Source of the DNA: Novosphingobium sp.
Lineage (GTDB): Bacteria > Pseudomonadota > Alphaproteobacteria > Sphingomonadales > Sphingomonadaceae
Assembly (NCBI GenBank): GCA_004211435.1
Contig: SECS01000012.1
Coordinates: forward strand, 1 to 64,000
DNA: 64,000 bases
Reading direction: 5' to 3'
Below the pieces are notes generated by a model. It saw only the letters and a program-made list of their open reading frames with translations, searched no databases and was not told the origin of the DNA. Every line of letters starts with the position of its first letter. Positions within the stretch are counted from its first letter, which is position 1. Of the stretch, positions 1 through 43,098 are shown one piece after another. A program made the translations under genes and the position numbers.

Positions 1-1002
1 CTTCAGGAAGCGCACGGCAACGAGAAGCGCTACCAGGCGAGCGACGAGGAGCTGCTCGCGTTCTACGAACAGATGCTGCTGATCCGCCGCTTCGAGGAGC
101 GTGCCGGCCAGCTCTACGGCCTCGGCCTGATCGGCGGCTTCTGCCATCTCTACATCGGCCAGGAAGCCGTTGCGGTCGGGCTCCAGTCGGCACTCGACAG
201 TAGCAAGGACTCGGTGATCACCGGCTACCGCGATCACGGGCACATGCTCGCCTATGGCATCGATCCCAAGGTCATCATGGCCGAGCTCACAGGGCGCCAT
301 TCGGGCATCTCGCGCGGCAAGGGCGGCTCGATGCACATGTTCAGCGTCGAGCATCGCTTCTACGGCGGCCACGGCATCGTCGGCGCGCAGGTCTCGCTCG
401 GTGCGGGTCTCGCCTTCGCGCACAAGTACCGCGAGGACGGCGGCGTCTGCCTCGCCTATTTCGGTGACGGCGCGGCCAACCAGGGCCAGGTCTACGAGAG
501 CTTCAACATGGCTTCGCTGTGGAAGCTGCCGATCATCTTCGTGATCGAGAACAACGGCTATGCCATGGGCACTGCGGTCAAGCGCGGCTCGGCCGAAACC
601 GAGTTCTACCGTCGCGGGACGGCCTTCCGCATCCCCGGCATGGACGTCAACGGCATGGACGTGCTCGAAGTGCGCCAGGCAGCGGAGATCGCGCTCGACT
701 ATGTCCGCCAGGGCAACGGTCCGGTGCTGATGGAGCTCAACACCTATCGCTATCGCGGCCACTCGATGTCGGATCCGGCCAAGTACCGCACGCGCGAGGA
801 AGTGAACGAGGTCCGCGAGAAGTCCGACCCGATCGAGGGCGCCAAGAAGGAGCTGATCGCGCGCGGGATCTCCGAGGACAAGCTCAAGGACATCGACAAG
901 CGCATCCGCGCGGCCGTCTCCGAAAGCGCCGACTTCGCCGAGAATTCGCCCGAGCCCGAGGCGTCCGAACTCTACACCGACGTTCTGGTGGAGCGCTACT
1001 GA
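1..1002 (+). CDS. pdhA: Pyruvate dehydrogenase E1 component, alpha subunit (5' end outside window)
   Basis: Thiamine-diphosphate-dependent E1-alpha, which with PdhB decarboxylates pyruvate and passes the acetyl group to lipoyl-E2. The frame is open from base 1 and the upstream residues ([12 protein letters not shown]) look like the usual N-terminal segment, so the true start lies outside the window; 333 residues are visible. The ThDP/Mg motif is clear: [15 protein letters not shown] followed by the closing ENN near base 550. [11 protein letters not shown] and [15 protein letters not shown] are the E1-alpha loops. The stop TGA shares one base with the pdhB ATG, so the two are translationally coupled. 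Identification is firm; only the 5' end is missing. Confidence 0.96.
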
Positions 1003-2420
1003 TGGCGATCGAACTGAAGATGCCCGCGCTCTCGCCGACGATGGAAGAGGGCAAGCTGGCCAAGTGGCTCGTCAAGGAAGGCGACGAGGTCAAATCGGGC
1101 GATATCCTCGCCGAGATCGAGACCGACAAGGCGACGATGGAATTCGAGGCGGTCGACGAAGGCACGGTCGGTAAGATCGTCGTCGCCGAGGGCACCGATG
1201 GGGTGAAGGTCGGCACGGTCATCGCGCTGATCCAGGGCGAGGGCGAGGAAACGCCGGCGCCCGCCGCGAGCAAGTCCGAGGAAAAGCCTGCGGCTGCGGC
1301 CGAGCCCAAGGCCGAAGAGCCCGAGGCTGAGGCCAAGGCCGCCGAGGCCGAAGCGCCGAAAAAGGCCGAGACGGGCACCGCGCAGCTCGCCAGCGATGCC
1401 AAGCCCGCGCAGGATCCCGCGATCCGTTCGGGCACCAACATGAAGAGCGCCACCGTCCGCGAGGCCCTGCGCGACGCCATGGCCGAGGAAATGCGCCGCG
1501 ACGACCGCGTCTTCGTGATCGGCGAGGAAGTGGCCGAGTACCAGGGCGCCTACAAGGTGACCCAGGGGCTGCTCGAGGAATTCGGCCCCAAGCGCGTCAT
1601 CGACACGCCGATCACCGAATACGGCTTCGCCGGTATCGGTACGGGCGCGGCGATGGGCGGCCTGCGCCCGATCGTCGAGTTCATGACCTTCAACTTCGCG
1701 ATGCAGGCGATCGACCACATCATCAACTCGGCGGCCAAGACCAACTACATGTCGGGTGGCCAGATGCGCTGCCCGGTCGTGTTCCGCGGTCCCAACGGCG
1801 CGGCGGCCCGCGTCGGCGCGCAGCACAGCCAGAACTATGGCCCATGGTATGCCTCGGTTCCGGGCCTCGTCGTGATCGCGCCTTATGACGCTTCGGATGC
1901 CAAGGGCCTGCTGAAGGCGGCGATCCGTTCGGAAGACCCCGTGGTCTTCCTCGAGAACGAGCTTGTCTACGGCCGTTCGTTCGAACTGCCCGAACTCGAC
2001 GATCACGTCCTGCCGATCGGCAAGGCGCGGATCGTGCGCGAGGGCAAGGACGTGACGATCGTGTCCTACTCGATCGGCATCGGCCTCGCGCTCGAAGCCG
2101 CCGAGCAGCTTGCCGGTGAGGGCGTCGACGTCGAAGTGATCGATCTGCGCACCCTACGCCCGCTCGACACAGACGCGATCCTGACCAGCCTCAAGAAGAC
2201 CAACCGCTTGGTCGTCGCCGAGGAAGGCTTCCCCGTATGCTCGATCGCGTCGGAAGTGATCGCGGTCTGCATGGAGAAGGGCTTCGACGATCTCGACGCG
2301 CCGGTGCTGCGCGTCTGCAACGAGGACGTGCCGCTGCCTTATGCCGCCAACCTCGAGAAGGCCGCGCTGATCAATACCGACAAGATCGTCGCCGCGGTCA
2401 AGCAGGTCACCTATCGCTGA
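1002..2420 (+). CDS. pdhB: Pyruvate dehydrogenase E1 component, beta subunit with N-terminal lipoyl domain
   Basis: E1-beta of pyruvate dehydrogenase, 472 residues. Residues 1-79 form a biotinyl-lipoyl domain with the lipoylation lysine in ETDKATME (Lys43). An Ala/Glu/Pro/Lys-rich linker follows to about residue 146, then the transketolase pyrimidine-binding domain and the C-terminal transketolase domain. A lipoyl domain on E1-beta is known from alphaproteobacteria such as Zymomonas and Sinorhizobium and explains a length well above the usual 330 residues. This lipoyl domain is about 85% identical to that of the E2 gene at 41984-43098. The start at 1002 overlaps the pdhA stop and gives the canonical [14 protein letters not shown]. 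Confidence 0.96.
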
Positions 2421-40161: not shown

Positions 40162-41583
40162 TCACATGTGGATGACGCGGCCGTAGGCGGCGAGCACCGA
40201 CTCGTGCATCATTTCGCTGAGCGTCGGATGCGGGAACACCGTCTGGATCAGCTCGGCCTCGGTGGTCTCGAGCGTCTTGCCGACGACATAGCCCTGGATC
40301 AGCTCGGTGACTTCGTGGCCGATCATGTGCGCGCCGAGCAGTTCGCCGGTCTTGGCGTCGAACACCGTCTTGACGAAACCCTCCTGCTCGCCGAGCGCGA
40401 TCGCCTTGCCGTTGCCGATGAACGGGAAAGTGCCGACCTTGAGCTCGTAGCCGGCTTCCTTGGCCTTGGCCTCGGTCAGGCCGACGCTGGCGATCTGCGG
40501 GTGGCAGTAGGTGCAGCCCGGAATGTTGCGGCGGTCGAGCGCGTGCGGGTGGACGTCCTTGTTGCCCAGCTCCTGCGCGATCGCCTCGGCGGCGGTGACG
40601 CCCTCGTGGCTGGCCTTGTGCGCCAGCCACGGGCCGGCGGTGACGTCGCCGATCGCCCAGATGCCCTTGACGTTGGTGCGGCCGTAGGGATCGACCTTGA
40701 CGTTGAAGCGCTCGTCGGGTTCGACGCCCACGTCCTCGAGGCCGATGTTCTCGATGTTGGGCACGATGCCGATTGCGGCGATGACGTGGCTGAAGGTCTC
40801 GTCGGTGACCTTGCCGTCCTTGTCCTTGATCTTGACCGCGACGGAGTCGGCGCCCGGCTGGATGTCTTCCAACTTGGCCGAGGTCAGGATCTTGATGCCC
40901 TGCTTCTTGAGCGCCTTGTCGAGGAAGGCCGAAACGTCGGCGTCTTCGACCGGCACCACGCGGTCCATCATCTCGATCACGGTCACGTCGACGCCGATGT
41001 CGTTATAGAACGAAGCGAACTCGATGCCGATCGCCCCCGAGCCGACAACGAGCAGCTTGGTCGGCTTCTCGGGCGGGGTCATCGCATGGCGATAGGTCCA
41101 GATGCGCTTGCCGTCGGCCTTGCCCGTCTTCTTGGGCAGCTCGCGCGCGCGCGCGCCGGTGGCGACGATGATGTGCTTGGCGGACAGCTCGGTGGTCTTG
41201 CCGTCGGCTTCGACCGCGAGCTTGCCCGCTCCGGTGATCTTGCCCGTGCCCATGTGCACGTCGATCTTGTTCTTCTTCATCAGCCCGGTCACGCCCTTGT
41301 TGAGCTGGGCCGCGACCCCGCGCGAGCGCTTGACGATCGCTTCGAGGTCGGCGCTGATGTTCTCGGCGGCCAGGCCATAGTCCTTGGCGTGCTTCATCTG
41401 GTGGAACACCTCGGCCGAGCGCAGCAGCGCCTTGGTCGGGATGCAGCCCCAGTTGAGGCAGATGCCGCCGAGCAGCTCGCGCTCGACGATCGCGGTCTTG
41501 AGCCCGAGCTGCGCCGCGCGGATCGCGGCGACATAGCCGCCGGGGCCGGAACCGAGGACGATGACGTCGTATTGATCGGACAC
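40162..41583 (-). CDS. lpdA: Dihydrolipoamide dehydrogenase (E3)
   Basis: FAD flavoprotein that reoxidises dihydrolipoyl groups with NAD in 2-oxoacid dehydrogenase complexes; 473 residues. FAD fold VLGSGPGGYVAAIRAA, redox-active disulfide Cys42-Cys47 in GGICLNWGCIPTK, NAD fold VVGSGAIGIEFASFY, and the C-terminal His-Glu dyad in FPHPTLSEMMHE. Lies directly after the thioesterase and pdhC genes on the same strand, which argues for use in the pyruvate dehydrogenase complex. Confidence 0.97.
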   Translation of the reverse strand: MSDQYDVIVLGSGPGGYVAAIRAAQLGLKTAIVERELLGGICLNWGCIPTKALLRSAEVFHQMKHAKDYGLAAENISADLEAIVKRSRGVAAQLNKGVTGLMKKNKIDVHMGTGKITGAGKLAVEADGKTTELSAKHIIVATGARARELPKKTGKADGKRIWTYRHAMTPPEKPTKLLVVGSGAIGIEFASFYNDIGVDVTVIEMMDRVVPVEDADVSAFLDKALKKQGIKILTSAKLEDIQPGADSVAVKIKDKDGKVTDETFSHVIAAIGIVPNIENIGLEDVGVEPDERFNVKVDPYGRTNVKGIWAIGDVTAGPWLAHKASHEGVTAAEAIAQELGNKDVHPHALDRRNIPGCTYCHPQIASVGLTEAKAKEAGYELKVGTFPFIGNGKAIALGEQEGFVKTVFDAKTGELLGAHMIGHEVTELIQGYVVGKTLETTEAELIQTVFPHPTLSEMMHESVLAAYGRVIHM

Positions 41584-41587
41584 GTTG

Positions 41588-41983
41588 CTACTTCTCCTGT
41601 TTGACCTGCCGGGGTTTCCCCGCTTCGTCGATCGCGACGAAGGTGAAGACCGCCTCGGTCACCTTGATGCTCTCTTCCTGGTGACGGTCACGCCGCCAGG
41701 CCTCGATCTGGATGGCCATCGACGTGCGGCCGACCTTGGCCAGCTTGCCGTAGACCGAAACTTCGTCGCCCACTTTGACCGGGGCGTGGAACTGCATGCC
41801 GTCCATCGCCACGGTCACTGCGCGCCCGTGCGAATATCGCGCGGCGATGAGCCCGGCGCCACTGTCCATAAGGCTCATCAGCCAGCCGCCGAAGATGTCG
41901 CCATAGGCATTGGCGTCGGCCGGCATGGCCGAGACGCGGATGACGGGATCTGCCGTCGGGGGCGACTGGGGAGCAGCGGCCAC
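41588..41983 (-). CDS. Acyl-CoA thioesterase, hot-dog fold (YciA-like)
   Basis: 131-residue hot-dog-fold acyl-CoA thioesterase. The segment MPADANAYGDIFGGWLMSLMD contains the catalytic Asp region, and MDGMQFHAPVKVGDEVSVYGKL is typical of YciA. Starts at GTG immediately after the pdhC stop TAA (no gap); lpdA follows four bases after its stop. Its place between E2 and E3 genes suggests co-expression with the complex; it might limit acyl-CoA build-up, but that is a guess. Confidence 0.88.
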   Translation of the reverse strand: MAAAPQSPPTADPVIRVSAMPADANAYGDIFGGWLMSLMDSGAGLIAARYSHGRAVTVAMDGMQFHAPVKVGDEVSVYGKLAKVGRTSMAIQIEAWRRDRHQEESIKVTEAVFTFVAIDEAGKPRQVKQEK

Positions 41984-43098
41984 TTAGGCCAGCATCCCCA
42001 GCGGCTTCTCGACGAATTCCTTGAAGGCGGCCATCAGGCGCGCGCCGTCGGCGCCGTCGACCGCGCGGTGGTCGAACGAGCCCGTGGCGGACATGACCGT
42101 CGCCACGCCGAGCGCGCCGTCGATCACATAGGGGCGCTGCTCGCCCGCGCCGATCGCCAGGATGGTCGACTGCGGCGGGTTGATCACCGCGGTGAACTGC
42201 TTGATCCCCATCATGCCCGCGCCTTGATCAGCATGTCGTTGACCGAGAGCTTGACGTTCTGGCTCTTGAGCGCGTCGTTGAGTTCGGCGCGCAGCGCGAG
42301 CAGCTTGTCGAGCTGGATGTCGACGGTGAGGTAGATGTGCGGCGCCTGCTGCATCGATTCGGTCAGGCGCTTGGCGATCGTCTTGCGCATGCCCGAGAGC
42401 TTCTCGACCGTGTGCGGGATGCGGTCGTCGAGCAGCTTGCGCGTTTCGGGCGCCATGTCGACCGAGGCGGGCTTGGCGGCAGCGGCCGGAGCCTGCGCTG
42501 CGGCAGGCGCCGCGCTCGAGGCGGGTGCAGCGGCCTGATCGTTCGCGGGCTTGCCAGCTGAAACCTGGACGGTGCCGGCCTTGGCGCCTTCGATGTCGGC
42601 CTTGACGATGCGGCCGTGCGGTCCGCTGCCGGTCAGGCCGGAAAGGTCTACGCCCTTTTCGGCGGCGAGGCGCTTGGCGAGTGGCGATGCGAGGATACGT
42701 CCCTCCTGGGTCTGCGATGCGGTGGATGCGGGCTTGGCTTCGGCCTTGGGCGCTTCGGGCGCTTTTTCCGGCTCGGCCGTAGCCTTGGGTTCTTCGGTAG
42801 CGGCCTTGGGCTGTGCCGCTTCTGACTTCTTTTCGGCGGCGGGCGCAGCGCCCTCGTCCTCGCCCGTCAGGGTGGCGATGACCGTGCCGACCTTCACCCC
42901 GTCGGTGCCTTCGGCCACGGCGATCGAGGCGATCGTGCCTTCGTCGACGGCTTCGAATTCCATCGTCGCCTTGTCGGTTTCGATTTCGGCGAGGATGTCG
43001 CCCGACTGGACCGTGTCGCCCTCCTTGACCAGCCACTTGGCCAGCTTGCCGACTTCCATCGTCGGCGACAACGCGGGCATCTTGATCTCGATCGGCAT
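41984..43098 (-). pseudogene. pdhC: Pyruvate dehydrogenase E2 (dihydrolipoyl acetyltransferase), internally deleted and frameshifted
   Basis: Upstream part, 295 codons from ATG 43098, is intact: lipoyl domain (Lys43 in ETDKATME), Ala/Pro linker, peripheral subunit-binding domain ([27 protein letters not shown], 138-163) and the start of the catalytic domain up to NDMLIKA. It then shifts frame to RA-stop at 42211. The remaining 77 codons, GMMGIKQF to the end with the DHRAVDG active-site motif, continue in another frame to the TAA at 41984. By comparison with remembered E2 sequences about 85 residues between LIKA and GMMG are missing. Start [14 protein letters not shown] is canonical. It is a real lesion or an assembly error; no other pdhC is in the window. 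Confidence 0.85.

Follow-up and report, generated by a model that had tools for sequence, protein, structure and literature searches.

A split pdhC gene for the pyruvate dehydrogenase E2 subunit in a Novosphingobium assembly, probably the result of a recent deletion

Is the gene for the E2 subunit of pyruvate dehydrogenase (PDH), pdhC, broken in the cells of this Novosphingobium sp., or was a piece of it lost in the assembly? The question was raised by the window, i.e., the whole stretch of 64,000 nucleotides that was analysed. The window is part of contig C19 of the assembly, hereafter G000 (4.49 Mb in 402 contigs, with completeness 100 and contamination 3.53). It is considered somewhat probable that the sequenced cells recently lost 253 bp of pdhC, out of frame, and with it the PDH E2. 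That the lesion is real, in any of the three readings discussed below, is likely.

The pdhC lesion and its neighbouring genes

The following features were assigned.

1..1002, plus strand: pdhA (E1 alpha), lacking its 5' end at the contig start; E1_dh matched at positions 2-299 of 300
1002..2420, plus strand: pdhB (E1 beta), carrying a lipoyl domain of its own at the N terminus; frame open as far as the stop
40162..41583, minus strand: lpd (E3, dihydrolipoamide dehydrogenase), 473 aa, intact, named by eye and by alignment
41588..41983, minus strand: thioesterase-like gene with an open frame, its GTG following the pdhC stop directly, named by eye
41984..42217, minus strand: C part of pdhC, in the other frame, GMMGIKQF...DHRAVDG..., TAA at 41986-41984
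42218..42219, minus strand: pdhC deletion junction, the 2 bases that separate the codon at which homology ends on the left from the one at which it resumes on the right
42211..43098, minus strand: N part of pdhC, with lipoyl domain, linker, E3-binding domain and the first ~65 residues of the catalytic domain

The N part starts with ATG at 43098 and is open for 295 codons (43098-42214), ending at a premature TGA (42213-42211). Its end reads ...NDMLIKA-R-A, and the last E2-homologous residue is A293 (GCG, 42222-42220). E2 homology restarts at GGC (42217-42215) with GMMGIKQF..., and the premature TGA shares bases with an ATGATG at 42214-42209. Between the flanking motifs 85 residues are absent and 2 bases (42219-42218) are left, so that the net loss is 253 bp (84 codons plus 1 base), out of frame. 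A frameshift sequencing error alone was rejected, because 85 residues of spacing are gone as well.

In profile search, the NCBIfam model TIGR01349 (PDH E2) was covered at positions 1-273 by the N part and 358-436 by the C part. Taken separately, the parts scored 251.9 and 98.9 bits, below the curated cut-off of 445 bits. The lipoyl domain (PF00364) and the E3-binding domain (PF02817) were both found above cut-off in the N part. The 2-oxoacid_dh domain (PF00198) was recognized at positions 4-68 and 156-231 in two frames, with 69-155 absent, and a complete domain in one frame was not present. The catalytic HxxxDG motif is confined to the C part, as DHRAVDG. In the protein of relative G022, the lost stretch corresponds to residues 281-365, i.e., 38% of residues 218-442. 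Ser363 of that protein, located 52 residues before His415, falls inside the missing stretch. These two residues would correspond to Ser558 and His610 of Azotobacter E2p, which have the same 52-residue spacing and are named together with Asn614 in the title of a work cited by PMC8421416; Ser363 would then be the active-site serine.

The initial annotation had read an E2 frame up to NDMLIKA and then a stop, a resumed frame from GMMGIKQF to DHRAVDG beginning at 42215-42220, and from these an internal deletion plus frameshift that removes about 85 residues of the catalytic domain. This observation proved correct, to within a few residues; the stop is the TGA given above, homology resumes from 42217, and the estimate of about 255 bp is refined to the net value. 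Its statement that the lipoyl domain, the subunit-binding domain, the active-site His and the neighbours lpdA and thioesterase are intact also agrees with our results, with the His in the C part only.

The pdhAB and lpd genes are kept intact, and pdhA is cut by the contig start alone. The lpd gene was aligned over 470-473 codons with seven relatives and over 73-357 codons with three others.

The two lipoyl domains of the window were also compared. Their DNA, at 1011-1244 (plus strand) in pdhB and 42856-43089 (minus strand) in pdhC, differs by 15.4% within G000, and the nearest neighbour of the pdhC lipoyl DNA was pdhB of the same genome, tied with pdhB of relative G006. Over 17 genomes, the within-genome difference between pdhB and pdhC was 0.219, lower than the 0.233 of shuffled pairs (6 of 10,000 shuffles were as low; 183 of 10,000 with third positions only) and higher than the mean between orthologues (0.200 and 0.208). 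This similarity may come from either occasional gene conversion or common base composition.

pdhC in related genomes

By DNA search with pdhC and the next gene, 41 of 41 genomes were matched, G000 included, some of them by the lipoyl domain only. When both pieces were compared, five relatives (G022, G007, G005, G016, and G012) carried 253 bp more, net of unaligned query bases. Chance as the source of the break was excluded on this ground and because the DNA alignments to relatives break at the junction. All 96 distinct unbroken E2 ORFs that had been selected as matching both parts of pdhC have a spacing of exactly 85 residues between the flanking motifs. An insertion of the extra 253 bp in the relatives was rejected, since PDH E2 structure chains (8piu, 6ct0, and 9j1w) align through the same stretch. 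Judged from these comparisons of sequence, pdhC carries a disrupting lesion relative to an intact ancestral state. A relative with about 255 bp more had been expected to prove an assembly error. Such relatives exist, with 253 bp, but they show the ancestral state and are no proof of an error.

An E2 match (E<=1e-60) was detected in 141 of 149 genus genomes and in all 115 good ones; G000, though split, is counted in both. Among the matches listed, that of G000 is the only one to end at the missing stretch without lying at a contig end. Of the partial matches, those of G077, G156, G140, G019, and G002 lie at contig starts and that of G001 at a contig end. The matches of G013, G057, G149, G098, and G164 start in the variable linker, inside long open frames, and G108 and one of two G042 matches are N-terminally partial. 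One long ORF matching both parts was found in 76 of 80 loci from named genomes. Three of the remaining four loci are cut by contig ends, and one, from a MAG, has a single in-frame stop. In this last locus (L103:4001-5260, pdhC of Sphingomonas MAG RYN_525), the stop replaces the Lys of LIKA and is either a point error or the mark of a pseudogene.

Recent deletion or assembly artefact

The alternative to a real lesion is that pdhC is intact in the strain and that 253 bp were dropped in the assembly or consensus, whether through a chimeric read, through a chimera formed in amplification, or because the assembler chose a minority variant. This is possible, though the less favoured side of the question. 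The E2 match in all 115 good genus genomes, the intact E1 and E3 genes and the kept gene order are in its favour, and Zymomonas pdhC is conditionally essential for aerobic growth according to the part of PMC10746277 used here. The assembly is also fragmented into 402 contigs, and the E1 genes expected 5' of another E2, on contig C138, are missing from it.

Against an artefact, the edges of the lesion carry no repeat of a kind to cause a collapse. The longest direct repeats lying no more than 60 bp from the two deletion edges measured 6-7 bp in the sequences of four relatives, which stand in for the lost DNA of G000. There were 0 N bases in 440,066 bases sampled from seven G000 contigs, and the junction sits in the contig interior. 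Because the edges have no repeat longer than 7 bp, N bases are absent from the sample, and pdhC is the sole split conserved gene on C19, repeat collapse is unlikely. The initial suggestion that the assembly has collapsed at this point is thus unsupported as far as a repeat-driven collapse is meant; other assembly or consensus errors keep the lesser, still considerable, chance given to an artefact above. In relative G006, a microhomology, TGGGC (left CTGGGC, right ATGGGC), was considered and rejected as the joining point, because joining there gives an in-frame loss of 252 bp, unlike the observed one.

The missing stretch was also not found on other contigs. Searching G000 with the intact pdhC of G022 returned C19, the pdhB lipoyl domain and two weak pieces of a paralogue on C138, so that a missing piece placed on another contig was rejected.

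An assembly with many broken genes was rejected as well. Alignment of contig C19 at >=55% identity gave 56 non-overlapping segments with G005 and 57 with G007, which cover 59,587 and 60,999 of its 76,090 bases, respectively. In the best non-overlapping segments, no reference ORF other than pdhC was divided. Of 18 multi-piece reference ORFs on C19, two were pdhC and the other 16 were spurious, i.e., antisense shadow ORFs, pieces of two adjacent genes, or matches to neighbouring paralogues (17-22 kb). A wider survey of parts of C89, C297, C151, and C218 gave one extra split, on C297, which is antisense to two ribosomal protein genes, rpmC and rpsQ (named by eye). This survey covered one segment per reference on C218, 11 segments from one reference only on C151, and none on C24 and C138, and so carries little or no weight for these four contigs. 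Within that coverage, no second split conserved gene was found on C19 or on the aligned parts of C89, C297, C151, and C218, which also speaks against an artefact.

The flanks of the lesion show no clear decay. Protein divergence between G000 and 10 relatives was 0.231 in the catalytic N part, compared with 0.229 among the relatives, and 0.171 compared with 0.179 in the C part. The ratio of first plus second to third position differences was slightly higher for G000 than among relatives, i.e., 0.52 vs 0.43 in the N part and 0.29 vs 0.24 in the C part. However, lpd, which is intact, and the thioesterase-like gene showed a rise as well (0.37 vs 0.33 and 0.37 vs 0.32, respectively), and the ratio is therefore no mark of pdhC decay. 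The undecayed flanks fit a very recent lesion and an artefact equally.

Pyruvate metabolism and comparison with known systems

If the recent deletion is real, translation would give a 295-residue protein of lipoyl and binding domains. It would be unable to form the E2 core or to pass acetyl to CoA, because 85 of ~225 catalytic-domain residues are gone, including the conserved serine. The role of the E2 core in the PDH complex is described in the portion of PMC7494870 consulted. From known chemistry, E1 could still decarboxylate pyruvate and load the lipoyl domains, and the transfer of acetyl to CoA would be blocked without the E2 core. Ribosome restart at the ATGATG over the stop may keep the two downstream genes expressed. 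Acetyl-CoA would then be supplied by other routes, i.e., catabolism of aromatics, fatty acids or acetate, and perhaps by an accessory PDH-like complex or KorAB. Poor growth on substrates that enter as pyruvate would be expected.

A second reading of a real lesion is that the pieces still work: either the E2 acts in split or truncated form, its C part re-initiated at ATGATG, or the N part serves as a soluble lipoyl/E3-binding carrier. The overlap of ATGATG with the stop, the presence of lipoyl and binding domains, the lack of clear decay and the lipoyl domain that pdhB has of its own are consistent with this. However, the same loss of catalytic residues, conserved Ser among them, opposes it, the ATGATG is accounted for by the conserved MM of GMMG, and among the matches listed the arrangement is present in none but G000. 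Working pieces are extremely improbable.

The initial annotation had pointed to the rest of the genome for a second E2, and the PF00198 search of G000 yielded three further E2s and no second copy of pdhC. SucB was found on C297, above its own NCBIfam cut-off. A BkdB-like E2 on C24 was named by context, with no NCBIfam model above cut-off. The accessory PDH-like E2 on C138 had TIGR01349 as its best model, at 388 bits, i.e., below the cut-off of 445. The claim that the cell lacks this E2 and must use another is therefore only partly kept. Other E2s are encoded, but "must" is an over-reading, because SucB and the BkdB-like E2 serve other substrates and a Pseudomonas aeruginosa mutant with a frameshift in aceF survives in spite of its damaged PDH, as reported in the section of PMC11376529 used here.

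Contig C138 (G000:C138:1-1559, L038) opens with the final 43 codons of an E1 beta gene, and the accessory E2 lies just 3' of it. The E1 alpha and beta genes expected 5' of this E2 were absent from the E1_dh and Transketolase_C matches in G000, which were on C19, C24, C151, C297, C218, and C89. Since these accessory E1 genes were not found, coding DNA seems to be missing from the assembly at the C138 contig start. In genome G049, the accessory E1 alpha, E1 beta and E2 genes adjoin acyl-CoA dehydrogenase-like and thiolase-like genes (named by eye), which suggests another substrate for the accessory complex. AceE and pyruvate formate lyase were rejected as a backup, because neither family had a match in G000. 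A KorA-like ORF was found on C89, with homologues in four of four relatives searched.

Two side observations were made in these searches. The KorA homologue G006:C89:137933-139834 has one internal TGA. On G000:C151, locus L128:415-2517 is a fused E1 alpha-beta 2-oxoacid dehydrogenase ORF of 700 aa from the first ATG, and contig C151 was not among the matches of the E2 family search.

These genes bear on a third reading of a real lesion, in which the loss is older and tolerated, and the lineage lives without PDH E2, oxidising pyruvate by the accessory 2-oxoacid dehydrogenase (C138) or KorAB. It is in line with the accessory PDH-like E2, whose relatives were found in 22 of the 59 genus genomes covered (G000 among them), and with the KorA-like and KorB-like ORFs on C89. 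However, pdhC has no further stop or frameshift, its protein divergence is not raised, and pdhAB and lpd are kept. The gene context in G049 suggests another substrate, and the KorA homologues occur in relatives with unbroken pdhC. An older loss is very unlikely. A broader proposal is a free-living Novosphingobium without the PDH core at an early stage of pathway loss, taking acetyl-CoA from catabolism, with an accessory dehydrogenase or KorAB oxidising pyruvate. This is unlikely as a whole; it overlaps with the favoured recent deletion if that deletion is both real and lasting.

If the lesion is real, PDH E2 has been lost naturally in a strain of a genus whose good genomes, as far as examined, all have an E2 match, and this strain could serve to study how sphingomonads obtain acetyl-CoA when PDH is lacking. 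If it is an artefact, it warns that part of a core gene can drop out of its middle in an assembly even where there is neither a repeat nor a run of N. Either way, no new mechanism is implied. The case is ordinary in kind, most likely a recent loss-of-function allele of a housekeeping gene, with a considerable chance of an assembly error. In the literature searched on PDH loss or essentiality in Novosphingobium and Sphingomonas, no such loss was found for Novosphingobium.

Among the closest known systems is, as far as the excerpt of PMC10746277 goes, the Zymomonas cluster pdhC-ZMO0511-lpd-ZMO0513 with pdhAB separate. G000 has the same pdhC-x-lpd order, with pdhAB apart and a lipoyl domain also on E1 beta. 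The alphaproteobacterial PDH E2 (TIGR01349; Zymomonas type) has the same domain order and shares the sequence of both remaining parts, whereas pdhC of G000 lacks 85 residues of the catalytic domain and its frame is broken. The N part also resembles E3BP (protein X), a catalytically inactive E2 variant according to the available text of PMC7494870. Both have lipoyl and E3-binding domains; E3BP is without acetyltransferase activity, and the N part would be too. However, E3BP works beside an active E2, and no second E2 of the PDH complex was found in G000.

Loss-of-function mutations of PDH in natural isolates are already known. In the part of PMC11376529 cited here, aceE and aceF mutations, including an aceF frameshift, were present among P. 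aeruginosa isolates from cystic fibrosis lungs in a collection of 474. The rebuilt aceF frameshift mutant grew slowly and secreted pyruvate, and growth was partly restored by acetate. The lesion in G000 likewise lies in a PDH subunit gene and is a frameshift in E2. The P. aeruginosa mutants were rebuilt and phenotyped, whereas the G000 lesion is known from a single draft assembly. This aceE/aceF precedent was counted in favour of a real pdhC deletion.
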